Assembly (NCBI RefSeq): GCF_041053055.1 | Contig: NZ_CP163443.1 | Coordinates: forward strand, 992,001 to 1,056,000 | Origin: Streptomyces sp. R41 | GTDB lineage: Bacteria; Actinomycetota; Actinomycetes; Streptomycetales; Streptomycetaceae | DNA length: 64,000 nt | Direction of reading: 5' to 3' | Part shown: positions 5,133 through 48,898 of the stretch, piece after piece | Position numbering within the stretch: the first letter of the stretch is position 1 | How the letters are laid out: every line of letters starts with the position of its first letter | Notes under the pieces: model-generated | The model's database searches: none | What the model was told of the DNA's origin: nothing | The model's input: only the letters and a program-made list of their open reading frames with translations | Program-made: the position numbers and the translations under genes

Positions 5133-5183
5133 GTCAGCGGAGACATGCACCCGGGGACGCGAACCGATACCCCTTCATGCAGA
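5133..5183 (+). repeat. 51-bp direct repeat, copy A
   Basis: It begins GTCAGCGGAGACATG and ends CCCCTTCATGCAGA. It matches 7386-7436 at 50 of 51 positions. The two copies bracket the TetR/hydrolase block. Its origin is unknown; it could be the shared end of an IS or a recombination scar. Confidence 0.75.
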
Positions 5184-5252
5184 AAGTGCCTTCGACTCGG
5201 GCCGACAGAACCCCTCGACAGGGTTCATCGTCCCGGCTCAGGAGGCACTTTC
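5182..5252. repeat. Long imperfect palindrome of nested stems
   Basis: GAAAGTGCCT and AGGCACTTTC form the outer 10-bp stem. CGGG/CCCG and GAACCC/GGGTTC form inner stems. The structure abuts direct repeat A. It could be an IS end, a recombination site or an RNA hairpin; no gene lies inside. Confidence 0.6.
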
Positions 5253-5298
5253 GCGTTTCCGGCCGCCGCTTGACTCCGCCCCAACCTAAATGGCGAGG

Positions 5299-5913
5299 TC
5301 AGCGGACCGCCGCTTTCAGCGCCGCCTCGATGGCATTGGTCAGCGTGTCCAGATACTCATCGTCGCTGCTGCCCTGTAGGACCAGTACGCGGAATGCGAG
5401 CGGTGCGATCAGCAGGTCGGTGCCGAGATCTAGATCCAGGCCGGGGGGGAGCTCGCCGCGGTCAATCGCGGCCTGCAGGATGGTGCGCGCCGCCGCGCGC
5501 CGCGGTGCGGTCACTCCGGTGTAGAGCCCCTCCGCCAGAGCGTCGTCGTGACTGGCCTCGGCGAGCAGTCCGGCCCAGATCCGGGCGAGCAGCGGATTGG
5601 CCAGTTGACTGCGGAAGGTGGCAAGCAGCTCGCGGAGGTCACTGTGCAAGTCGCCGGTGGACGGCGTGTGTGGGAGTGTGTGGGTGACCCTGCTGCGGAT
5701 CAACTCGGCGATCATCGCCTGCTTCGAGGACCAGCGCCGGTAGAGCGCGGCCTTGCCCACACCGGCACGCCGGGCCACCGCCTCCATCGACATCCGCGCA
5801 TACCCGGCCTCGGCGAGTTCGGCGAAGGCCGCCTCGGTGATCGCGTCGGTCACCCGCTGCCGCAGGACCGCTCCTCCGGTCGCCGGCCGTCCCTTCTTCT
5901 GTTGCTCTGCCAT
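5299..5913 (-). CDS. TetR/AcrR family transcriptional regulator
   Basis: A 204-residue repressor. The N-terminal helix-turn-helix is clear (AFAELAEAGYARMSMEAVARRAGVGKAALYRRWSSKQAMI), and a C-terminal ligand-binding domain of the TetR_C type follows. ATG at 5913 is used; an in-frame ATG at 5925 adds four residues and cannot be excluded. It is divergent from the alpha/beta hydrolase at 6009. Two strong palindromes lie between them, so it most likely represses both itself and the hydrolase. The inducer is unknown. Confidence 0.88.
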   Translation of the reverse strand: MAEQQKKGRPATGGAVLRQRVTDAITEAAFAELAEAGYARMSMEAVARRAGVGKAALYRRWSSKQAMIAELIRSRVTHTLPHTPSTGDLHSDLRELLATFRSQLANPLLARIWAGLLAEASHDDALAEGLYTGVTAPRRAAARTILQAAIDRGELPPGLDLDLGTDLLIAPLAFRVLVLQGSSDDEYLDTLTNAIEAALKAAVR

Positions 5914-7534: not shown

Positions 7535-7813
7535 TCAGCGATGTGCGTCCAGGTATGCGTCGTGCTCGGCGTAGTGGATGACTGCCTGGCATTTCTCCAA
7601 GGGGCTGGGCCGGGCTCCGTGCCGCCAGGACGACCACACGTCGAGGACGTCTTGGGCCAGTTCGACTTCGAGTAGATAGGCAAGGTCGTGCGGCGGCGCG
7701 TCGAATGCTGCGACGGCCGCGTCTGAGGCGGCCGTCCATGGCTTGGCCGCGTAGATGACCGCTTCGGCAGGCTGTTCTTCAAGGGACTGCAGAAGGTCCA
7801 GGAGAGAAGGCAC
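7535..7813 (-). CDS. Hypothetical protein, 92 residues
   Basis: A GTG-started, acidic, helix-rich protein (SLLDLLQSLEEQPAEAVIYAAKPW...AQDVLDVWSSWRHGARPSPLEKCQAVIHYAEHDAYL). It has no signal peptide or membrane segment. Composition and codon use look coding, but the family was not recognised. Confidence 0.5.
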   Translation of the reverse strand: MPSLLDLLQSLEEQPAEAVIYAAKPWTAASDAAVAAFDAPPHDLAYLLEVELAQDVLDVWSSWRHGARPSPLEKCQAVIHYAEHDAYLDAHR

Positions 7814-7937
7814 GCTGAGAGAGTAAGACGCTCGTCTCGAACTGCTCCCCGAACGAGGTCACCCACCTGGGGATTCGCCGGACGTGGGGGCGGCCTTCAT
7901 CTGATCATGTGCTCCGACCAAGGTGCACGTGACCACG

Positions 7938-8521
7938 ATGAAGGCCGTGAGGGTGAGTCTGCTGCCGGATGCTGTCCGGAGGGAAGCGTTCGCGGAGGCG
8001 TCACGCTTCCGGGGCGAGTTCTACGAGTGTCTGACCGCCCGGCGCGACGAGTTGTTCGAGCTGGTGGACGCGGTGCTGTGTGCGGACGGTGCGGTGAAGT
8101 CCCCGGTGGACTTGACGCTGCTGCCCGAGCATCGTCGCGGGCACGGAGCGATGTACGGCGGTCTGAACCACGGCCGGATCGACGTCGACCGCCTGCGGAC
8201 GGTGCTGGCCGGCCTGCCGCTGCCGCGTTTCGACGGCGGGCGCCTGGTCCTGGCGGTCGATGTGTCGCCGTGGCTTCGCTCGGACGCGCCGTGCTCAGCG
8301 GAGCGGCTGTTCTGCCACGTCTACGGCCGGGCGAAGACGGCGTCGCAGTTCATCCCGGGCTGGCCCTACTCCTTCGTCGCCGTGCTGGAGCCGGGCGCCA
8401 CGTCCTGGACCTCGATCCTGGACGCGGTCCGGCTCGGCCCAACGGACGACGCGACCGCGATCACCGCCGCCCAGCTCCGAGGAGTCGTTGAACGGCTCAT
8501 CACCGCGGGCCAGTGGCAGGC
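7938..8521 (+). pseudogene. DDE transposase N-terminal remnant (same family as 58370-59815)
   Basis: About 194 residues align throughout with the intact transposase at 58370: FRGEFYECLTARRDELFELVDAVLCADG, HRRGHGAMY, LAVDVSPWLRSDAPCSAERLF and IPGWPYSFVAVLEPG. The first catalytic Asp (DVSPWLR) is present. The match ends at GQWQ near 8515; the second Asp and the Glu are lost. The frame then runs into an unrelated gene. Confidence 0.8.
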
Positions 8522-36443: not shown

Positions 36444-38301
36444 AGCCGGCGCACCGATGCAGTCGGAGCACTAGACCCCGACGGCGTCGGCCATCGCACC
36501 CCAGCAGCAACTCTCCGTGCCAGTGCTGCTGTCGAAACCCGTGAACATTTCGATTCCCTCTCGGGCGGCGGCTGCCTCCCAAACCGGTGTACATCCGCTG
36601 CCCGTTCTCGGGCTCTGGTCCACTTCGTGTGGTCGCGTACGCAGCGTGACTGTCGATCTTCTCGTGATGGTGGCTGAGATAGCCCGAAAATCGCCCGGCC
36701 GGTGTGCAGTGTGGCCGACAGTGCTGCGCCGTGAACGAAGTACGGCCGCAACTCGCAGAGTTACTGTTCCCCTCGCTGCAGAACGTGTTGGTGGAGTCGG
36801 TCGAGGTGACCGACAGGGTCGTCCGAGTCGAGGCCCTGAGCACTGCCCGGCAAGCGACCTGCCCGGGCTGCGAGCGTCCCTCAGGGCGAATACACGGCTC
36901 CTATCTGCGCTTTCCCCATGACCTGCCAACTGCGGGCAAGTCCGTCGTGGTGGCATTGAGGGTGCGCCGGTTCGTCTGCGCGGAAGCCTCCTGTCCGCGC
37001 AAGACTTTCGCCGAGCAGGTGCCGGGACTCACCCGCCGGTTCGGCCGGCGGACGGAACGGCTGCGATCGACGCTCATCTCGGTCGGCCTCGCGCTCGCGG
37101 GCCGAGCCTGGGCTCGCATGACGGACATCTTCGGGACGCCGGTCAGTCGGAACACCCTGCTGAGGCTGATCGCCTCACTCCCGGATCCGCCCACTGTCAC
37201 GCCCCGCGTGGTCGGCGTGGACGAATACGCCCAGCGCAAGGGACGGATCTACGGAACTGTGCTCATCGACGTCGAAACACGTCGTCCGATCGACCTCCTG
37301 CCCGACCGGCAGGCGGACACGCTCGCGGCCTGGCTCGCCGAGCGGCCCGGCATCGAGATCGTCTGCCGTGACCGAGCTCCCTTCTTCGCCGACGGCGCCA
37401 CCCGCGGCGCCCCACAGGCCCTCCAGGTCGCCGACCGGTGGCATCTCTGGCACAACCTGGGCGAAGCCGCCGAGAAGTGCGTCTACCGGCACCGCGGCTG
37501 CTTGCGCCCCACGCCAGAACAGCCGGAGGAACCCCGGGAGGAGCCGGAGTCGGCCACGTCATCGCCCTGGCCGACAGGGCACCGGTTTGCCGAACGCACC
37601 CGCGCCAAGCACGCCACCATCCACGCTCTCCTCGCCGCCGGTCACAGCAAGCGGTCCGTCGCCCGACAGCTCGGCATGACCGGCAACACGATCTTGCGTT
37701 TCGCCCGCGCCGCCACCCCGGAGGAGCTGTTCACCGGCCAGTGGCAAAACCGTGCGACCAGGCTCGACGCCTATAAGCCCTACCTCGATCAGCGCTGGCA
37801 GGAAGGCTGCACCAACGCCTGGAAATTATGGGAGGAGATCAAGGAACAGGGCTATCCCCGCGGTTACGCCGGCGTCCGCGACTACGTCAGCAGGAACCTT
37901 CGCGGCAAACCCCAACCCATCGGCCCTCGTCCGCCGTCGGCCCGCGCCGTCACCCGCTGGATCCTCACCCACCCCGATGCCCTGCCCGAAGGCGACCCGA
38001 TTCAGCTCAAGGCCGTCCTGGCCAACTGCCCCGAACTGACCGCACTTGTCGACTACGTGCGTTCTTTCGCCCACATGGTCACCGAACTGCAAGGCGACCG
38101 ACTGCCGGAGTGGATCGCATCCGCCCGAACCACCACCGACCTGCCAAGCCTCAGCCGATTCGCCCAGCACCTCGAACGCGACCTTGACGCGGTCATCGCC
38201 GGCCTGACCCTGCCATGGAGCTCAGGCGTCGTCGAAGGACACGTCAACAGGATCAAGATGCTGTCGAGTAGCCGGGGGCATTTCAGCCCCCGGCCCTCAC
38301 A

Positions 38302-38335
38302 GAACCGTACGTAACGATCTCTCGTTATACGGCTC
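38302..38335 (-). ncRNA. Group II intron domain V
   Basis: A 34-nt hairpin on the minus strand: GAGCCGTATAACGA, tip, then TACGGTTC. It holds the AGC catalytic triad at the 5' side and is followed by a domain VI stem and the intron 3' end. It has the same length as the relic at 4756-4789 but a different stem sequence. Confidence 0.82.
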
Positions 38336-38347
38336 TTGCTGCCCTGG

Positions 38348-39610
38348 TCACCAGACGACGGGGACTGTTGGTACCCAGGCCCAGTGGGCGAAGAACCGGG
38401 GCCGCTGGGTAACGGTCCTGTTCCACGCTTCCTGCGCCTTCTTCCGTCCCCGCAGTCGTTTGTATTTCTTGCGGATCCAGCGCATCAGGTAGGCGTTGAT
38501 GCGCCCCAGGAGGGGATACAGCGCCGACCGGTAGAAGGCACCGTAGTACTGCATCCAACCTCGCACGACTGGATTGATAAGCCGGGCGAGATCCGCTTCA
38601 GAGACCTCAGTGTGCAAGTGCAGCCGCCAGGACCGCACCCGCCTACTGATCTTGTTCAGGGCGTCGTTGCTGATCGCCGGATTGAAGCCGGTGAACATTT
38701 TCCCGGTCTTCAACCGCACCTGACGGGCCCGGAACGTGAACCCGAGGAACGTGAACGCGGTGTGCTCGTGGGAGCCGCGCCGGTTGCTGTCCTTGCAGTA
38801 CACGACCCTGGTTTTATCCGGGTGCAGTTCCAGTCCGACCTCGCCCATCCGCTGCTGAAGTGCCGCGAGCACATGGTGTGCTTGGGCCTCGCTGACGCAG
38901 TGGACCACCGCGTCGTCCACATAGCGTTCGAAGACGACGCCGGGGAATTCCCGGGTCATCCATGCATCGAACGCATAGTGCAGAAACAGATTCGCGAGCA
39001 CGGGCGAGACCGCGGAACCTTGCGGGGTTCCCCGGTCCCGGACCTGCAACGAGCCGTCGGGCAGCATCATCGGCGCTTCCAGCCACCGCTTGACATACAG
39101 CACCACCCACGGCAACTCGGTGTTCGCCTCGACCGCCTTGACGACCAGGTCCCACGGCACAGTGTCGAAGAACTTCCGGATGTCCAGATCGATCACCCAG
39201 TCCGTCCTCCAGCACCGCTGTCGGCAGGCCATCACCGCGTCGAGCGCGGACCGCTGGGGACGATAGCCATAGGAGTCCGGATGGAAGATCGTCTCGACCT
39301 TCGCCTCCAGTTCCTGGGCCACGACCGTCTGCGCGATCCGGTCGGCAACCGACGGCACGCCGAGGATTCTCATGCCACCGCCGTGCGCCTTCTCGATCTC
39401 CACCGCGCGCACCGGCTGCGGGAAGTACGACCCTGAAGACATCCGATTCCAGATCTTGTAGAGATTGTTCTTCAGATCGGCCCCGAACTCCGCGATCGTC
39501 TGTCCATCCACTCCGGGTGCGCCCTTGTTCGCCTTGACCTTCTCCCACGCCTCCCAGACCGCCCGCTTCGAAATCTCGAACGGCTTGTCTGGTGCTTTCA
39601 GCTTGTTCAC
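38348..39610 (-). CDS. ltrA: Group II intron reverse transcriptase/maturase
   Basis: 420 residues. The RT domain includes GAPGVDGQTI, VPSVADRIAQTVVAQELEA, FHPDSYGYRPQRSALDAV, DLDIRKFFDTVPWDL, RDRGTPQGSAVSPVLANLFL and the catalytic YVDD at residues 230-233. A thumb and maturase region follows (RSWRLHLHTEVSEADLARLI, VRGWMQYYGAFYRSALYPLL). No HNH endonuclease domain follows, so integration probably uses replication-fork primers. It supports splicing and retrohoming of its own intron. Confidence 0.95.
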   Translation of the reverse strand: MNKLKAPDKPFEISKRAVWEAWEKVKANKGAPGVDGQTIAEFGADLKNNLYKIWNRMSSGSYFPQPVRAVEIEKAHGGGMRILGVPSVADRIAQTVVAQELEAKVETIFHPDSYGYRPQRSALDAVMACRQRCWRTDWVIDLDIRKFFDTVPWDLVVKAVEANTELPWVVLYVKRWLEAPMMLPDGSLQVRDRGTPQGSAVSPVLANLFLHYAFDAWMTREFPGVVFERYVDDAVVHCVSEAQAHHVLAALQQRMGEVGLELHPDKTRVVYCKDSNRRGSHEHTAFTFLGFTFRARQVRLKTGKMFTGFNPAISNDALNKISRRVRSWRLHLHTEVSEADLARLINPVVRGWMQYYGAFYRSALYPLLGRINAYLMRWIRKKYKRLRGRKKAQEAWNRTVTQRPRFFAHWAWVPTVPVVW

Positions 39611-40835: not shown

Positions 40836-41749
40836 TCATTGCCAGGAAGCGTTCGCAGGGTTCCAGTGTCCTTGCGCGCTGCCGTCGAGCAGCGGGTTCA
40901 GGAACGTCTCGGCAGCCTGGGCCGCTTCGGGGAAGGTGCCGCATCCTTGCAGCCCGATGACCAGTGCGGCGGCGGCTGGGTAGTTGTCGTGCCAGGCGGG
41001 CCCCGGCGCTTCGAAGGACTTGGGCAAGGTGAGGTCGATGCTGCGCTGGCAGCGTTGGTCGGCCTCCCGGTGAAGGTCTTGATAGACCGCCCGCCCGTTG
41101 ACCTCCTCCTGCTGGCTGATCAGCAGCAGGTCGGCCAGGTCGCGGTAGCGGCTGGATGTCCCATCACCATGGCGCTCGTACAAGGCGCAGATCTTGTCGG
41201 CGATGTGGTCGATGAGGGGGTAGAGACGGAGACGAACAGTGGGCCAGTCGACGGGCCACGGCAGGTCGCCGGCGGAGGCCAGAGGACTGATTTCAGGGGT
41301 GCCGGCGAGGGAGCGGCGGACCGTGATGTCGACCTTGACGCTGTCGACTCGGGTGGGGCCAAGGAAGACCTGGAAGTGCTGCGAGCCTCCGCGGGCGGGG
41401 TCGGCTGCGGAGGTGCACTTGCCGGGTGCGAAGCGGAGGAAATCGTTGAGCGCGCAGGCGGCAGCCTCCAGGACGCGCTTGCGTGCCTCGTCCGGGGTCA
41501 GGTCGGGATGGGCGGCCTGCAGGTCTCTGTCGCCGCTGAGGCGGGCGGCTCCCCGGTAGCGGACGAGGAGAGCCTGGCCGCCTTTGATAAGCCATCCGTC
41601 GGGGTCCTGGGTGAAAACCCGGGCTGCGAGGCGGTTGAAGTAGAAGATCCGCATGAGGTCGGAGACGTTCATGCCCGTCTTGACATCTTCTTCGCTGACT
41701 GGTTCAGCGCAGCTCTGAAGGCCGTTGGAGTCGAGTAGGTCTTGCCCAT
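40836..41749 (-). pseudogene. AbiEii/AbiGii-type nucleotidyltransferase toxin, frameshifted
   Basis: The main frame (from 41672) has GWLIKGGQALLVRYRGAARL then SGDRDLQAA, the nucleotidyltransferase core with the SxDxD-type acidic pair. Later come HIADKICALYERHG and SSRYRDLADLLLISQQ of the AbiEii family. The expected N-terminus (GKTYSTPTAFRAALNQSAKK, ATG at 41749) is in another frame that stops at 41675, so one indel separates them. No AbiEi antitoxin gene is adjacent. A GTG/ATG restart at 41672 could still give most of the protein. Confidence 0.75.
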
Positions 41750-41802: not shown

Positions 41803-41846
41803 TGACCGTCGCTCAGCTTGGCTTCGTAGGTGACGGTTGACGCCAC

Positions 41847-41915
41847 TTGTAGGTCAGTTCTGACTCCACCCGGTGCGTGGGGGTGCTGATTTTGTAGGTG
41901 AGAAATGACTCCACC
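41847..41915. repeat. Left terminal direct repeats L1 and L2 of the IS21-type element
   Basis: Two 24-bp copies, 41847-41870 and 41892-41915, identical at 20 of 24 positions. Both end TGACTCCACC. Confidence 0.75.
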
Positions 41916-41952
41916 TGGCGGCCCCGCTGTGGCGGGTTGAGCCCGTGTCGGG

Positions 41953-42912
41953 TCACCACTGGGTGACGAGCGGTGTGTCCGGTCCGTGCTGCCGCCAGGT
42001 TTCGGTGAGGCGGGCGAGGCGGGTGGGGGTGGCGATGCCGCGCACGGTTGCGATCCTGCCGCCTGTAATGTCGAATGTCACGGCGCCGATGACCTGGTCG
42101 CCGATCACGAAGAGAATGGCGGGGGCGCCGTTGACGAGCGCGTAGTGGATGGCGGGCATGCCGCCGGCAAGTCTCCGTTTCGCGGGTGTGGGTTTGAAAC
42201 CGGCCCGTGCGATGGCGGCGATGCGCTGCGGAGTGTCGTACCGCAGCAGCGTCTTGGCCGGGCCGGCGGCGTTGGAGTCGGCGATCGCGGTCGCGTCGTC
42301 GGTGAGCAGAGCCACCAGACGTTCGGTGCGGCCCGAGGAGGCAGCGGCGAGGAATTCCTCGACGATCCTGCGGGCGGATGCCGGGTCGACTTCGCCGCCG
42401 CTAGGGCGCGCGGCGGTGATGCGGTGCCGGGCCCGGTGGAGGTGCTGCTGGCTTGCGGATTCGGTGATGTCGAGGATTTCGGCGATCTCGGCGTGGCTGT
42501 GGGAGAACGCTTCGCGCAGGACGTAGACGGCCCGCTCGAGGGGTGACAGGCGTTCCATGAGCGTCAGCACGGCCAGGGAGACCGATTCGCGCTGCTCGAA
42601 CGTGTCGGCCGGGCCGAGCATCGGGTCGCCGTCCAGGAGCGGTTCGGGCAGCCAGGCGCCGACGGTGCGTTCGCGGCGGGCCTGTGCCGAGCGGAGCCGG
42701 TCGAGGCACAGGTTGGTGACGACCTTGGTCAGCCATGCTTCCGGCACCTTGATCCACTGCCGGTCGGTGGCCTGCCAGTGCAGGAACGCGTCCTGCACGG
42801 CGTCTTCGGCGTCGGCGGCGGAGCCCAGCAGCCGGTACGCCAGCGAGGCCAGCCGGTTCCGGCTGGCCTCGAACCGGTTGGTGTCGAAGCGATCAGTGGC
42901 GGTGCTGTCCAC
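41953..42912 (-). CDS. sigJ: ECF41-type RNA polymerase sigma factor with SnoaL-like C-terminus
   Basis: 319 residues. Region 2 is FEASRNRLASLAYRLLGSAA then DAEDAVQDAFLHWQATDR; region 4 is LSPLERAVYVLREAFSHSHA then EIAEILDITESASQQHLHRA. The C-terminal ~110 residues form a SnoaL-like domain (RRIVEEFLAAASSGRTERLV, LLTDDATAIAD, PAIHYALVNGAPAILFVIGD) that modulates activity in this group in place of an anti-sigma factor. GTG 42912 sits behind GAGGAAGG, 23 bases after the oxidoreductase stop. Sigma/oxidoreductase pairing is typical of ECF41 loci. Confidence 0.87.
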   Translation of the reverse strand: MDSTATDRFDTNRFEASRNRLASLAYRLLGSAADAEDAVQDAFLHWQATDRQWIKVPEAWLTKVVTNLCLDRLRSAQARRERTVGAWLPEPLLDGDPMLGPADTFEQRESVSLAVLTLMERLSPLERAVYVLREAFSHSHAEIAEILDITESASQQHLHRARHRITAARPSGGEVDPASARRIVEEFLAAASSGRTERLVALLTDDATAIADSNAAGPAKTLLRYDTPQRIAAIARAGFKPTPAKRRLAGGMPAIHYALVNGAPAILFVIGDQVIGAVTFDITGGRIATVRGIATPTRLARLTETWRQHGPDTPLVTQW

Positions 42913-42934
42913 GCGGACCTTCCTCGTCAGGCGG

Positions 42935-44134
42935 CTACGCGACCGTCCTCTCGGCTGCCGCATCCGGTACGGCGGCCAGGTGGCGCTTGAGCTTGGGCAG
43001 GCCGAAGGTCGGGTGCGAGGTGGTCCACAGTGACATCTTGAGGATGCCCGCCTTGATCCGCGCGGCCTTGCGGCCGCCCACATACTTCGGCTTTGCTTGC
43101 GCTTCGTTGTCGACGATCTGCAGGATCCCGTCCCGCCGCCCGAGGCTGATGTGGTTGCCCAGGTACTCCAGCTTGGTGTTCGGGATCTTGCGGCCGGTCA
43201 GGCGTCCCACGATCGCGGCCGTGGCCTGCATGCCGGTGTAGCCGGCCGAAGCGCAGGACATCGGCAGCGGCCGGCCGTTGTCGCCGATGGCGTAGGCACT
43301 GTCGCCAGCGGCGTAGACGTTCGGGTGCGAGACCGACCGCATGGTGCGATCGACGACGATCCGACCGTTCTCGGTGACCTCCAGCCCGCTGGCGGAGGCG
43401 ATGGGGCTGACCGCGAACCCGGCCGTCCACACGGTTGTATCGGATGCCAGGGCGATGCCGTCGGCGCACAGCACCCGCGTCGCTTCGACGGCTTCGACGC
43501 TGATGTGCTCCAGGACGGTGACGCCCAGCCGGTCGCAGGCCCGGCGCAGGTGGCCGCGGGCTCCGGCGGAGAGCGGGGCGCCCAGCTCGCCGCGGGCGAC
43601 CAGCGCCACCGACAGGCCGGGCCGGGATTCGGCGATCTCGGTGGCGGTCTCGATGCCGGTCAACCCGTCGCCGACGACCAGCACACTCCCGTCCTCGTCC
43701 CGCCTACTCAGGCTGTCCAGGCGCTCGCGCAGGCGCAGCGCCGCCGGACGACTGGTGACGTGGAAGGCGTGCTCGGCCACGCCGGGGACGCCGTGGTCGG
43801 CGACGTGGCTGCCGAGCGCGTAGAGGAGGGTGTCGTAGCCGAGCTCGCCGCCGCCTTCGGCGTCGGCCACGGCGACGACCTGCCGCTCGGGGTCGACGGC
43901 GGTGACACGGGCCAAGCGAAGCCGTATCCCCGTGCCCGCAAAGACGTCGGCGAGCTGTGGAGCCTTGATCTCCTGGCCGGACGCGAGCTGGTGCAGCCGC
44001 AGCCGCTGGACGAAGTCCGGCTCGGCGTTGATCACGGTGATCTCGGTGTCCGCCGGGGACAGCCGACGGGCCAGGGTCCCGGCCACGTAGGCCCCGGCAT
44101 AGCCGGCGCCGAGGACGACGATGCGGTGCTTCAT
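42935..44134 (-). CDS. NAD(P)/FAD-dependent oxidoreductase (NDH-2-like)
   Basis: 399 residues with two Rossmann folds. The FAD motif VVLGAGYAGAYVAGTLA is at the N-terminus, the NAD(P) motif VLVVGDGLTGIETATEIAE near residue 155, and the second FAD motif VYAAGDSAYAIGDNG near 275. The protein resembles type II NADH dehydrogenases and related disulfide-reductase-fold enzymes. It is first in an operon with the ECF41 sigma factor and probably a target of it. It sits inside the IS21-type element. Confidence 0.9.
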   Translation of the reverse strand: MKHRIVVLGAGYAGAYVAGTLARRLSPADTEITVINAEPDFVQRLRLHQLASGQEIKAPQLADVFAGTGIRLRLARVTAVDPERQVVAVADAEGGGELGYDTLLYALGSHVADHGVPGVAEHAFHVTSRPAALRLRERLDSLSRRDEDGSVLVVGDGLTGIETATEIAESRPGLSVALVARGELGAPLSAGARGHLRRACDRLGVTVLEHISVEAVEATRVLCADGIALASDTTVWTAGFAVSPIASASGLEVTENGRIVVDRTMRSVSHPNVYAAGDSAYAIGDNGRPLPMSCASAGYTGMQATAAIVGRLTGRKIPNTKLEYLGNHISLGRRDGILQIVDNEAQAKPKYVGGRKAARIKAGILKMSLWTTSHPTFGLPKLKRHLAAVPDAAAERTVA

Positions 44135-44300
44135 GTGCTGCTCCTGTCGGTTCGCTTGGCTCTCCGTGACTTGAGCGGAACAGCGCCCCGATTACTGACA
44201 GGAACCACATGTGGCGTGCGTCACAGCACGGCAGTGGCTACCTTGCACCGTGAGTCACGGATAGGAGTCCGGTCCCCACAGCAGAACGGCGCCGTCTTCG

Positions 44301-45104
44301 TCAGCCCGCAGAGACCGCCGCGGCCTGCTGTGCGGCGCGGGCGCGGGTGGCGGCCAGACGGTAGGAGTCGGTGCCGGTCTCGATGATGTTTCCGCCGAAC
44401 GTCAACCGGTCCACGATGGCCGCGCAGAGCCTTGGATCCGTAAAGGTTTTGGTCCACCCAAAGGATTCGTTGGAGGCGATCGCCACAGAATTCTTTTCCT
44501 CACGCTCCGTCAAAACCTGGAACAGCAGCTCCGCCCCGCGACGATCAAGCTCCATATGCCCTAGTTCGTCAATACAGAGAAGGTCGACGCGGCCGTAGCG
44601 GGCGATGGTCTTGGCCAGCAGCTTCTCGTCGGCGGCCTCCACGAGCTCGTTGACGAGCTTGGTGGCCAGCACGTACTTCACCCGGTACTCATGCATTGCC
44701 GCCTCGGTGCCCAGCGCGATGAGCAGGTGTGACTTGCCGGTTCCGCTGTCGCCGATCAGACACAGCGGCAGGCCCTTCTTGACCCAGTCGCACTTGGCAA
44801 GGGTGTGGATGGCGGCCGCGTCGATGACAGGGTTGGCGTCGAAGTCGAACTGCCGGATCGACTTCTCACGCGGAAAGCCGGCCGCCTTGATCCGGCGCTC
44901 CGAGCGGCGCCGTGCCCGGTCGTCGCATTCGGACAGCAGCAGTTCGGCCAGGAATCCGCGATACGTCATCTGGTCACGGAGGGCGGCTTCGGCCAGTTCG
45001 GGGTACTGGGTGCGGATGGTGGGCAGCCTGAGCATCCGGCATGCCTGGTCCACGGCGGTGTCGGCGGCCTGTTCGGTCAGTCCGCGGTTGCGCTTGGCGG
45101 TCAC
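44301..45104 (-). CDS. istB: IS21 helper ATPase IstB
   Basis: 267 residues. Walker A is LIGDSGTGKSHLLIALG and Walker B is RVDLLCIDELGHM; the sensor region is VAIASNESFGW. This AAA+ ATPase selects the target and activates IstA. The GTG start at 45104 overlaps the istA stop as GTGA, so translation is coupled. It looks intact. Confidence 0.94.
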   Translation of the reverse strand: MTAKRNRGLTEQAADTAVDQACRMLRLPTIRTQYPELAEAALRDQMTYRGFLAELLLSECDDRARRRSERRIKAAGFPREKSIRQFDFDANPVIDAAAIHTLAKCDWVKKGLPLCLIGDSGTGKSHLLIALGTEAAMHEYRVKYVLATKLVNELVEAADEKLLAKTIARYGRVDLLCIDELGHMELDRRGAELLFQVLTEREEKNSVAIASNESFGWTKTFTDPRLCAAIVDRLTFGGNIIETGTDSYRLAATRARAAQQAAAVSAG

Positions 45105-46768
45105 GGTGCCTCTTCCTGGTATGCCTGGCCGTCGGCGGCACGCCGGCGGAATCGCAGCAGCTGGTCGTAGGCGGCTACCGACGGCAGCGGCCTGGGGTCG
45201 GGCGGCAGCGCGGCCAGGCGCCGCTCGGTCAGCGAGGTCACCGTCGCCCCGCCATCCACCCGGCGCGGCGCAATGTCCTGGCTGGCCGACTGGTCGGCGC
45301 CCTGGTCGACCTCGCCCCACTTGCGGGCCTCCAGGGCGACCGCGTCGGCGGTCAGCGCGCCAGCCCGCAGCGCAGTCGCGATCCCGGCCACCACGTGCTC
45401 GTGGACCATGTGCCGGTGCAGCAGCAGGACGGAGATGAGCGCCCGGGTGCCCTCCGCGTCGCCGTGGGCGGTGCATGCGGCCTGCCACCAGGCGTCGTGG
45501 ACCGGGGTGAACTTGCCCGCCGAGCGGGCCTGGTCCAGCGCGGTCGCCCCGGGCAGCGCGCCGGGCTTGCGGACCAGCGCTTCCAGGTAGTGGTCCAGCT
45601 CCAGGCGGGAGCCGCCCTTGGCGATCAGCCGCTCGTGGCGGGCGACTTCCTTGTGCGCGTCGTAGACCACCAGCTCGGAGGCGTGCAGCACGACCCGCAC
45701 CATCCGGCCGATCAACCTGACCGGCACCGAGTAGTGGTTCGTGCGCACGCTGACCTGGCTGTAGCGATTCACCCGCAGCGAGGACACCAGCCCGGTCTCG
45801 AACTCCTCTTCCGGCAGCGCCACCAGCAGCGGGCGCTCGACGGCGAACATCTCACCGATGGTCAGCGCCCGCTGCATGATCCGGCGGGCGTCGTCCTCCT
45901 CATCCCAACGCTCCACCATCGCGTTCAGCTCGGCCAGCGAGGCGACTTTCGGGACGGGGACCAGGTGGTTTCTGCGGAACCAGCCGATCTGCCCCTCGAC
46001 GCCGCCCTTCTCATGGGCGCCCTCGATGCCGGGATTGCAGTAGAAACTGTTGATCGAGAAATGGGACCGGAACGCCGTCCAGCGGTCGCTTTCCACCCGG
46101 CCCCGGGTGTGGCCCAAAACCTGGCTAACCGCGGCGCGCAAGTTGTCGTAGCGGACCTTGCCGCGCGGCACGCCGCCCAGCACTTGAAGCGCGTGGACGT
46201 GGCCTTCCAGGAACGCTTCCTTCCCGCACGAAGCGAAGATCTTGTGCACGGCCTTCCCGCTGAACGAAAGGCGCAGCGAGAACAGGAACACCTTGGTGGA
46301 CACTCCGTCCAGGTGGATCCACACGTCCCCGAAGTCGACCTCCGCCTCGTCACCGGGGCGGTGGGTCTGCGGCACGAACGCCTGCGGCGGGCCGCGGCCC
46401 TCCTCCCTCCGGATCTCCGGACGGCGTCCGGCGATGCAGGCGCGGACCATCGAATACGTCACGCCCTGTGCGTCGTGCTCGTCGATCAGCCGGTCGAAGA
46501 CCCGCTTGACGGTGTGCCGCTGCTTGCGCGGCGCGTCCAGGTCATCCCGCAGGATCTCGTCGATCGTCGCCTTGAACGGATCCAGGCGCGAGATCCGGGG
46601 TGGAAGCTGCTTGCGCGGCGGCGGCGCCACCGACTCCAGCGCCATCGCGACCGTCCTGCGGCCCACCCCGTACTTGGCCGACAAAGCCCTGCTGGACAGC
46701 CCTTCGACCCGAGCGTCATGGCGTATCGCCGCGTACAACTCGACCTTCGAATAGGGCACTTGAGCCAC
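45101..46768 (-). CDS. istA: IS21 family transposase IstA
   Basis: 555 residues. It has an N-terminal HTH (VEGLSSRALSAKYGVGRRTV), then the RNase H-like core with DEAEVDFGDVWIHLDG, VRYDNLRAAVSQVLG and EGAHEKGGVEGQIGWFRRN supplying the D, D and E residues. A C-terminal region interacts with IstB. It reads toward the passenger genes through istB. It looks intact. Confidence 0.94.
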   Translation of the reverse strand: MAQVPYSKVELYAAIRHDARVEGLSSRALSAKYGVGRRTVAMALESVAPPPRKQLPPRISRLDPFKATIDEILRDDLDAPRKQRHTVKRVFDRLIDEHDAQGVTYSMVRACIAGRRPEIRREEGRGPPQAFVPQTHRPGDEAEVDFGDVWIHLDGVSTKVFLFSLRLSFSGKAVHKIFASCGKEAFLEGHVHALQVLGGVPRGKVRYDNLRAAVSQVLGHTRGRVESDRWTAFRSHFSINSFYCNPGIEGAHEKGGVEGQIGWFRRNHLVPVPKVASLAELNAMVERWDEEDDARRIMQRALTIGEMFAVERPLLVALPEEEFETGLVSSLRVNRYSQVSVRTNHYSVPVRLIGRMVRVVLHASELVVYDAHKEVARHERLIAKGGSRLELDHYLEALVRKPGALPGATALDQARSAGKFTPVHDAWWQAACTAHGDAEGTRALISVLLLHRHMVHEHVVAGIATALRAGALTADAVALEARKWGEVDQGADQSASQDIAPRRVDGGATVTSLTERRLAALPPDPRPLPSVAAYDQLLRFRRRAADGQAYQEEAP

Positions 46769-46815
46769 CCAGGGCTAGCTGATGCACTCCGATACTCTCA
46801 CCGCAAGGCCCCCAG

Positions 46816-46903
46816 TGGAGTCAGAACTCACCGACATCAACTGTCCGCCGACAGCACTGGAGTCAAAACCCACCCACCGCTGGCCTCAAAACTGACCTAC
46901 AAA
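46816..46903. repeat. Right terminal repeats of the IS21-type element
   Basis: Three inverted copies: 46816-46835 (TGGAGTCAGAACTCACC), 46858-46875 (TGGAGTCAAAACCCACC) and 46881-46903 (CAAAACTGACCTACAAA). Their complements match L1 and L2. Confidence 0.72.
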
Positions 46904-46981
46904 GCCACAGGGGATTTGCTGATGACGCAGACTGTTGGGGCTGATGGGATCCCCGATGCACGATGGGCTTCGGGCTCCGTC

Positions 46982-48898
46982 TCACAGCTGCGGGTCCGCG
47001 TGGTAGCGGATGAGGGCCAGGCGGCGCCGTTCGAAGTCGTCGGCCTGCTCGGTGATGTAGCCGGTGGAGATGGGCTTGTTGTACTGGGCGGTGATCCCGC
47101 GGGCAGCGCACTCCTGCGCAATGGCGTCCGGCGACAGTTGGTCGCTGCGCATCCGGTGCTCGGCCCAGACGTTGTAGACACGGGAGGGCAGGAAGTAGCG
47201 GCGCAGGGTGGACGGGCTGACCGGCTTTCCACCGCGGCCATGCATGCCCTTCTGCACGAGGTAGGCGGACAGTTGCTCGGCGGTGGGTTCGTCGCCGTGC
47301 TGTGTCAGGTAGTCCATCCACGCGAGGTAGTACCGGTCGACGACGGTGAGGTCGCTTCCCTCGGCAGGGCTCTGCGGCGGCGGTTGCTCTTCGATGGCAG
47401 CGTTCACCCGCAGGGCTCGCTTCTCCTTGGCTGCGTGCGCTCCTGCGTCGGCGGGCACCGATTCAGGATCCCCCTCTGATGGGCGAGGCTCATCAGCGGT
47501 CTGCTCGCGGGGATCTGCAATCGCCTCGTCGACTGGCAGTTCAGCGTCGCCGAACTCACGCTCCTGGAAGCTCGCGACGAAGGCCGCCAGCTCCTCGCCC
47601 GTGAAGGGCCGGCCATCGGCGCCCGCGACGCCGTCCCGCTCGTACACATACGCAGCAAGGACGCCGGCATCGGGATAGGCCCCGTACTGCTGCGCGTACG
47701 TGAGCCAGGCGTTGTAGAAGTAGTCGTCCCACGACAGTTCATCGACCGCCTGCTGCGGATCACCGGAGTCGGTCCCGGCTTCGATCGGCAGGCCGTAGCG
47801 CTGCTTCAGGACCCGGAGCAGCGGCTGCAGTTGTTCATCGGAGAGCGGGCCGCCGGCTGCGGTGGAGATGCCGTACTCGTCTTGGAGCCAGAAGGCGAAC
47901 TGAGCGGGCGTGGGCTCGGACTCGAAGTTGGCGAGCCAGGACTGGTAGGCGTCGGCAAGCCGCCCGACGCTCCGCTCGTCCGCCCCCTCCGGGCCGTGAG
48001 ACTTGTCCAGTTCTGCGAGCGGGTCCTGCCGCACGGGGTGCGGCTCGGCGCTCCCCGGCTGCGCCAGTTCCCTCTCCTGGTCCGCGGTGGCCCGTACGGG
48101 GCTCTGCCTCTGGGCCGCAACCGGGGGCCGCTCGACGGTGAACTGGATCGGTGGCTCGTCGATGCCGGCGGCGGCCAGGCCGGCGGGCGCTGTCTCGGCG
48201 AGGGGGACGCCGTAGCGGGCGAGCCGCAGCGGCATCATGGCCTCGACCGGGGCCTTGCGCCGCCAGGCGCGGCCGAAGCGGGAGCGCAGGCGGGCCTGGT
48301 AGACGAGGCGCTCCTGCTCCAGCTTGATGACCTGCTCGTAGGAGCGCAGTTCCCACAGCTTCATGCGGCGCCACAACAAGAAGGTGGGGAGGGGGGAGAG
48401 CAGCCAGCGGGTGAGGCGGACGCCCTCCATGTGCTTGTCGGCGGTGATGTCCGCGATGCGGCCGATCGCGTGCCGGGCCGCCTCGACGGTCACGACGAAG
48501 AGGATCGGGATGACGGCGTGCATGCCGGTGCCCAGCGGGTCCGGCCAGGCCGCCGCGCCGTTGAACGCGATCGTCGCCGCCGTCAGCAGCCAAGCCGTCT
48601 GACGCAGGAGCGGGAAGGGAATCCTGATCCAGGTCAGGAGCAGGTCCAGGGCGAGCAGGACGCAGATGCCCGCGTCGATGCCGATCGGGAAGACGTAGGC
48701 GAAGTTCCCGAAGCCCTTCTTGACGGCAAGTTGGCGGACGGCGGCGTACGAGCCCGTGAAGCCGATACCGGCGATGATGACCGCACCGGTGACGACCACG
48801 CCGATGAGAATCCGGTGTGTCCGAGTCAGCAGGATCCGGTCTCCCCGAGCCGGGCGGGGTATTTCGCCGCTCCCCGTACTCACGTCCCACTCCCCCAT
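46982..48898 (-). CDS. DUF2637 membrane protein (SpdB-like) with three C-terminal repeats
   Basis: 638 residues. The N-terminal ~170 residues hold four hydrophobic segments (ILIGVVVTGAVIIAGIGF, AYVFPIGIDAGICVLLALDL, TAWLLTAATIAFNGAAAW, VIPILFVVTVEAARHAIG), the DUF2637 domain of Streptomyces spread/transfer proteins. The C-terminal half has three related units of ~60 residues: WLANFESEPTPAQFAFWL, WLTYAQQYGAYPDAGVLAAY and WMDYLTQHGDEPTAEQLSAY, each followed by a GxPxS-type turn. A role in conjugative spread of an integrative element or plasmid is likely. Confidence 0.82.
   Translation of the reverse strand: MGEWDVSTGSGEIPRPARGDRILLTRTHRILIGVVVTGAVIIAGIGFTGSYAAVRQLAVKKGFGNFAYVFPIGIDAGICVLLALDLLLTWIRIPFPLLRQTAWLLTAATIAFNGAAAWPDPLGTGMHAVIPILFVVTVEAARHAIGRIADITADKHMEGVRLTRWLLSPLPTFLLWRRMKLWELRSYEQVIKLEQERLVYQARLRSRFGRAWRRKAPVEAMMPLRLARYGVPLAETAPAGLAAAGIDEPPIQFTVERPPVAAQRQSPVRATADQERELAQPGSAEPHPVRQDPLAELDKSHGPEGADERSVGRLADAYQSWLANFESEPTPAQFAFWLQDEYGISTAAGGPLSDEQLQPLLRVLKQRYGLPIEAGTDSGDPQQAVDELSWDDYFYNAWLTYAQQYGAYPDAGVLAAYVYERDGVAGADGRPFTGEELAAFVASFQEREFGDAELPVDEAIADPREQTADEPRPSEGDPESVPADAGAHAAKEKRALRVNAAIEEQPPPQSPAEGSDLTVVDRYYLAWMDYLTQHGDEPTAEQLSAYLVQKGMHGRGGKPVSPSTLRRYFLPSRVYNVWAEHRMRSDQLSPDAIAQECAARGITAQYNKPISTGYITEQADDFERRRLALIRYHADPQL

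Follow-up and report, generated by a model that had tools for sequence, protein, structure and literature searches.

The window analyzed here, a 64,000-nucleotide stretch of Streptomyces sp. R41 (NZ_CP163443.1; G000:C1:992001-1056000, in a one-contig genome of 10.46 Mb), contains a putative IS21-family transposon in which an operon for a sigma factor and an oxidoreductase lies between the transposition gene istB and the left end. Alignment with related elements placed the borders at 41819 and 46907, a length of 5,089 bp. An earlier interpretation made from the DNA alone (here, the sequence-only reading) had overlooked the outermost left repeat, and its borders of 41838 and 46909 are corrected to these positions.

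Each end carries three copies of a repeat of about 22 bp, spaced by 23 and 45 bp on the left and by 23 and 42 bp on the right, such that the right end mirrors the left. The left end module (41819 to 41952, plus strand) starts with the outermost copy and the terminus TGGCTTCGTAGG, comprises repeats at 41819 to 41845, 41847 to 41868, and 41892 to 41913, and continues for about 39 bp of conserved sequence past the repeats. The right end (46816 to 46907, minus strand) comprises inverted copies at 46816 to 46837, 46858 to 46879, and 46881 to 46907 (core, 46881 to 46902); its terminus AAAGCCA reads TGGCTTTGTAGG on the opposite strand. The two termini are identical at 15 of 20 bases and of the TG..CA type. 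The two left direct repeats that the sequence-only reading had listed are the second and third left copies, and its three right inverted repeats are likewise present.

Inside the right end lies istA, encoding the IS21 transposase (45101 to 46768, minus strand; NCBIfam model NF033546, 208.4 bits against a cut-off of 160), the start of which may alternatively be at 46759, as in an annotated homologue in a related element (L123). Directly downstream, in a frame that shares 7 bp with istA, is istB, encoding a 268-amino-acid AAA+ helper ATPase (44301 to 45107, minus strand; NF038214, 234.9 bits against a cut-off of 200). Pfam models gave the same assignments, in agreement with the istA-istB pair proposed earlier. 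As also noted then, no IS21-type end was seen adjoining istB in the window element. The left terminus is 2,482 bp from the istB stop codon, and the interval holds two further genes.

Those two genes form an operon (approximately 41948 to 44226) that takes up the slot from istB to the left end. The FAD/NAD oxidoreductase gene (42935 to 44134, minus strand; 399 amino acids; Pyr_redox_2, 132.8 bits against a cut-off of 26.1) is directly upstream of a gene for a 319-amino-acid ECF41-like sigma factor (41953 to 42912, minus strand; start placed after the annotated L128 homologue). Domains Sigma70_r2 (residues 14 to 77) and Sigma70_r4_2 (residues 113 to 163) are followed in the sigma factor by about 155 residues more, a long C-terminal extension of the kind expected of ECF41 factors; the best NCBIfam models were SigX4 and SigJ, both below cut-off, and no ECF41 model was among the matches. 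Upstream of the oxidoreductase gene, the sequence contains a candidate ECF41-type promoter, TGTCAGT-n16-CGCT (44174 to 44200, minus strand), that is near, but not identical to, the ECF41 promoter TGTCACA-n16-CGTC (PMC3426412), and a TGTCAG-like motif is also present in copies of the operon elsewhere. Published ECF41 factors switch on the promoter of their partner gene (PMC3426412). As in ECF41 systems with a COE partner (carboxymuconolactone decarboxylase, oxidoreductase, or epimerase), an extracytoplasmic function (ECF) sigma factor here adjoins a Pyr_redox_2 oxidoreductase with a candidate TGTCA-type promoter (PMC3426412), but the window pair sits inside a transposon. The mobile pair may constitute a self-activating unit.

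Ends and cargo slots of related elements

Both ends are present in three plasmid elements, the istAB genes of which are 93.1 to 94.5% identical to those of the window. The S. canus element (NZ_CP108710) carries a DUF6518 gene (match just above cut-off) and is flanked by the target duplication CCCGGC, the NBC_00989 element (NZ_CP108729) carries DUF6221, STAS, and one further protein between copies of GTTGAC, and the NBC_00455 element (NZ_CP109338; L125) carries a methyltransferase between copies of GGACGC. An element of NBC_00154 (L044; istAB 91.5% identical) has a tautomerase gene and the duplication GCCTGGC, and the element of G131 (L113), in which no slot gene could be named, has the duplication AGTTGG. 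Two transposase-free elements of 691 and 881 bp (G280 and G308) contain either a cold-shock gene, with the duplication CTGCCG (L116), or a protein without a Pfam match (L112) that its N-terminus suggests is secreted.

The ends in this close set were fixed by homology, not by duplication, and an exact target duplication of 6 to 7 bp was nonetheless found in 6 of the 10 close elements with homology-defined ends; the chance of an exact 6- to 8-bp match at random pairs of window positions is 8e-4. The 10 elements exclude the one-ended L041, L042, L048/L109, L114, L115, L117, L126, L127, L130, L131 to L136, and L210 to L212 as well as the remnant L128, and L097, L207, and L208 were not used. Many of the ends are flanked by short target duplications, which shows them to be true ends. 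We note that istAB with a right end was also found where no left end was detected (L041/L126, L042/L108, L127/L130, and L110); the L108 contig starts 386 bp before istB, and an IS3 occupies that place in L127/L130. A scan with the terminal pattern mostly matched a look-alike sequence, TCGTAGGTGAG..GACTCCA, and a pattern with a longer terminus matched 38 of 392 genomes, look-alikes still included.

The left end itself recurs. From 41819 onward, 137 bp of the window are common to L112, L113, L123, and L124 at 88 to 93% identity, the likeness ceases at 41955, and different sequence adjoins it in each; three of these four elements, which have other contents, are flanked by an exact 6-bp duplication. 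The absence of a duplication at the window and the position of conventional ends close to istB (see below) would fit the insertion of a plain IS21 next to an operon of the chromosome, with the far-side repeats unrelated or due to chance. The recurrence of the left end rules this explanation out, along with the idea that the repeats arose by chance, and we give it practically no weight.

Whereas istA is 91.7 to 94.7% identical among five close elements, the left ends of the NBC_00455 and NBC_00154 elements are 73 to 81% like the others and each other. Most slots of the close elements have no common sequence. Sharing was limited to 412 bp at 88.6% identity between NBC_00989 and S. turgidiscabies, 114 bp at 91% between S. 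turgidiscabies and S. ureilyticus, 86 bp between NBC_01669 and S. canus, and 49 bp between NBC_00989 and S. ureilyticus. These patterns suggest that left end and cargo are exchanged between elements by recombination.

A wider sample of 35 further loci, with istAB about 65 to 80% identical (the incomplete L153 was dropped), was examined for TG..CA termini with a duplication of at least 6 bp. Where both ends were set (L141, L142, L145, L147, L148, L149, L151, L152, L159, L161, L162, L163, L164, L167, and L172), the duplications measured 6 to 9 bp and the left end lay 380 to 5,667 bp from the istB stop codon. The slots contain genes for a DUF4279 protein (L152), a methyltransferase and a CPT-type kinase (L163), a methyltransferase (L142 and L161), YdjC (L167), peptidase S51 (L162), an APH-type kinase (L164), SMI1/KNR4 (L172), or a TPR-like protein below cut-off (L145), and the 8,264-bp element L159 (G011:C28; 7-bp duplication) contains a LacI regulator, an asparaginase, a nitrilase-type hydrolase, and a 408-amino-acid protein without an assignment. 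The slot has no Pfam name in 5 of these 15 elements (L141, L147, L148, L149, and L151), and the open reading frames of L141 and L148 have no Pfam match. Genes for GNAT, YunG, DUF4440, kinase-like, and methyltransferase proteins are likely cargo in loci without a duplication, and in one locus from Nonomuraea (L045) a candidate left end, also without a duplication, is 1.5 kb away from istB. L115 has a left end of the clade and, about 1 kb inward from it, a further ECF sigma gene (7617 to 8318) of the SigX4/SigJ type; the gene matches only the first part of those models, and no right end was found in L115.

Conventional IS21 elements behaved differently. Among 20 control loci from other Actinomycetota, nine were resolved (L177, L178, L179, L180, L181, L182, L185, L189, and L191), with ends 26 to 125 bp past istB. 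The nine represent seven different elements, since L178 and L179 are copies, as are L180 and L181. L181, L185, and L189 are weak in having no duplication, L189 also lacks TG..CA, and in L191 a non-TG candidate at 316 bp outranked the chosen end. The other controls had no istA-istB pair (L174, L175, L176, L188, L190, L192, and L193) or no ends set (L183, L184, L186, and L187); in L187, a candidate end without TG lies 563 bp past istB (18 of 20 bases, 6 bp). In a tree of 44 IstB rows, a 100/98 branch split the 35 Streptomyces/Nonomuraea rows from the nine controls, some of which have long branches. The sequence-only reading had named homologous istAB elements ending directly after istB as evidence that would count against it; distant conventional IS21 elements do end there, but an end within 200 bp of istB was found in none of the 35 wider-clade loci by either the stricter or the relaxed test. 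The comparisons support the conclusion that the operon is cargo of a clade of transporter insertion sequences (IS) within IS21.

The operon at other sites and its possible histories

Copies of the operon also occur without the transposon. In 61 genomes searched, 10 same-genus loci with flanks read (L012 to L020 and L023) contain the operon without istAB at 76 to 88% identity, and plasmids, including those of NBC_00390 (L129) and NBC_00841 (L209), also carry copies without IS ends. When these 12 copies were searched with up to five mismatches allowed for ends and four for repeats, none contained ends or repeats belonging to this IS group. Their neighbors differ among themselves and from those of the window, so the situation that the sequence-only reading had said would speak against it, the pair at the same chromosomal place in strains without this IS21, was not observed. 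Moreover, likeness between L209 and the window begins at 41947, at the border between left module and cargo. We conclude from the IS-free copies, the varied neighbors, and the L209 border that the operon is a unit in its own right, which came to enter an IS21.

Two copies retain IS sequence. In G164, window positions 41819 to 44268 are matched at 96.3% identity over 2,452 bp, beginning exactly at the transposon terminus, and the left end and operon are followed there by an istA remnant, about 1.3 kb of inserted DNA, and the right end. This locus lacks istB and most of istA, and its flanks are unlike those of the window. A plasmid of S. goshikiensis (L128) matches 41899 to 44241 at 96.6% identity and includes the operon and half of the third left repeat. 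The same junction between left end and cargo is therefore found at three sites. The expectation of the sequence-only reading that the unit would occur elsewhere is borne out in part, in that G164 has the left end and operon between both IS ends, although the complete element was not found a second time. Its proposal that the pair travels as cargo is supported by G164 and by the elements with other cargo between similar ends; a mobile stress regulon, which it also suggested, is speculative.

The operon might instead have been spread by plasmids, conjugation, and homologous recombination, with IS21 ends hitchhiking and without IS21 transposition to other sites. The 12 IS-free copies and the location of several operon copies on plasmids fit such a history, as does the lack of a working istAB and of a duplication in the G164 and L128 copies. 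In G164, however, both IS ends are present and the match begins at the terminus, which argues for transposition of the left end with its cargo rather than recombination through flanking DNA, and we consider such a history unlikely. Still less probable, in our view, is a one-off composite, as opposed to a member of a cargo clade, in which an IS21 lost its left end by deletion and the unit was closed by that of another copy beyond a resident operon. Duplications are absent at the window, at G164, and at the S. turgidiscabies element (L046), and the IS21-family element ISPve1 has been reported to generate large deletions (PMC3281130), but the same left module and slot are found in elements that have other cargo and exact target duplications, and none of the 35 wider-clade loci has an end beside istB. 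Cargo may nevertheless have first been captured by such a route.

Several observations weigh against a cargo transposon. The window element has no exact target duplication of 4 to 9 bp, as the sequence-only reading had already stated, and the same is true of G164 and L046; the duplication of L112 matches at only 7 of 8 bp and was not counted as exact. Both ends were set in 15 of the 35 wider-clade loci, a selected count rather than an unbiased rate because the duplication helped to pick the termini; the remaining 20 lack both ends set, and the termini of L142, L159, and L161, with 8 to 10 of 20 matching bases, came only from a relaxed second look. The complete 5.1-kb element has no second copy in its own genome and 60 relatives, and none of 437 plasmid records with a match covers 80% of it. 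The empty site that was expected for the window element was not found when 295 genomes were searched with the right flank. One genome (G235) shares that flank at 94% identity, and the left side and the element are absent there, even within 16 kb. The lack of a duplication at the window would indicate an old copy, or a flank that underwent rearrangement or deletion once the element had inserted.

Taking these points together, we consider it very likely that the segment is a single IS21-family transposon with a two-gene cargo in a slot that its clade keeps between the left end and istB. Transposition and cargo capture are inferred. By analogy with published IS21 biochemistry, IstA would bind to the repeats of the two ends and pair the TGGCTT..AAGCCA termini, IstB would act as the target-capturing ATPase, and everything between the termini would move, the operon traveling with its own promoter. 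IstA has been shown to pair the terminal repeats, and both IstA and IstB are essential for integration in vitro (PMC10122671). As the published mechanism does not demand that the ends be near the genes, a cargo slot is compatible with it. DNA that the elements have in common on either side of the slot (the left end and istB-istA) could allow homologous recombination between copies to swap left end and cargo as a block.

Flanking genes and ISL3 sequences

A gene for an AbiEii-type nucleotidyltransferase (40836 to 41672) lies directly left of the element, and a DUF2637 protein is encoded to its right (46982 to 48898); some similarity to this second stretch occurs in 289 of 295 same-genus genomes, often over only about 670 bp. 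The sequence CTGATGACGCAG is common to DNA just outside the right ends of the window element (46918 to 46930) and the NBC_01669 element (L041) and could reflect chance or a similar target.

ISL3-type sequences lie inside end repeats of the IS21 clade in L210 (5001 to 7764) and L113 (8690 to 10520). The L210 insertion is within the third left repeat and has an 8-bp duplication, GAGAAATG, and that of L113 is at the right end. L128 (at 5988) and L109 (at 10705) are broken at a repeat by GGCTCTGGTCCAC, which also adjoins the window's own ISL3 transposase gene (36611). This presence in the repeats may reflect a site preference. On the NBC_01334 plasmid, the ISL3-type insertion (L210, 5089 to 7707) appears to hold an S-adenosylmethionine (SAM) methyltransferase gene (5141 to 5890) between its own ends and is possibly an ISL3 transporter IS. 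In the window, a reverse transcriptase/maturase gene of the group II intron type comes after the ISL3 transposase gene, on the opposite strand (36704 to 39610).

Known systems and implications

The clade shares with IS21-family elements such as IS21 and IS5376 the istA and istB genes, TG..CA termini, several terminal repeats, and a short target duplication. IS21 elements are described as two open reading frames between terminal repeats L1/L2 and R1/R2 (PMC10122671), whereas in the window clade each end has three repeats and istB is followed by a cargo slot, which measures 2.5 kb in the window and 0.4 to 5.7 kb from terminus to istB stop codon across the clade. The window element departs from the family in lacking a target duplication and in having more than istA and istB between its ends. 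Transporter IS are elements with copies that also contain passenger genes having no relation to transposition (PMC3129680, PMC9330008, PMC7986276). The window element resembles them in having a passenger operon inside IS ends that also lives elsewhere without IS, but here the arrangement characterizes a whole IS21 clade, in which the cargo of one slot varies. An IS21 element with such passenger genes was not found in the literature searched, which comprised sources outside subscription reviews and ISfinder, and this is weak evidence of novelty.

Mobile insertion cassettes consist of IS ends around a nontransposase gene and are moved in trans (PMC3129680). L116 and L112 resemble such cassettes. 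Known cassettes are of the IS4 family and occur in Bacillus, whereas the ends of L116 and L112 belong to the IS21 clade. IstB has been described as similar to MuB and TnsC (PMC10122671). As in Tn7-like and Tn5053/Tn552-type transposons, a DDE transposase and an AAA+ partner are combined with cargo between ends that have several transposase-binding repeats. The window clade differs in having the two-gene IS21 machinery and mostly one or two cargo genes, and neither a target selector nor a resolvase was seen in its elements.

The Streptomyces/Nonomuraea IS21 clade might be a gene-cassette platform with block exchange, one self-contained function per transposon, and transposase-free cassettes moved in trans, a proposal to which we give an even chance. 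The functions would include the ECF41 operon, asparaginase and nitrilase genes with a LacI regulator, methyltransferases, acetyltransferases, and kinases. IS21 is described and annotated as istA-istB only, so slot genes pass for ordinary genes of the host. Should the slot prove general in the clade, many Streptomyces accessory genes, regulators included, would be mobile cargo with definable borders, and the clade ends would provide a simple means of finding them. As a small two-gene relative of MuB- and TnsC-assisted cargo transposons, the clade could also be used to ask what distance between the ends is permissible.

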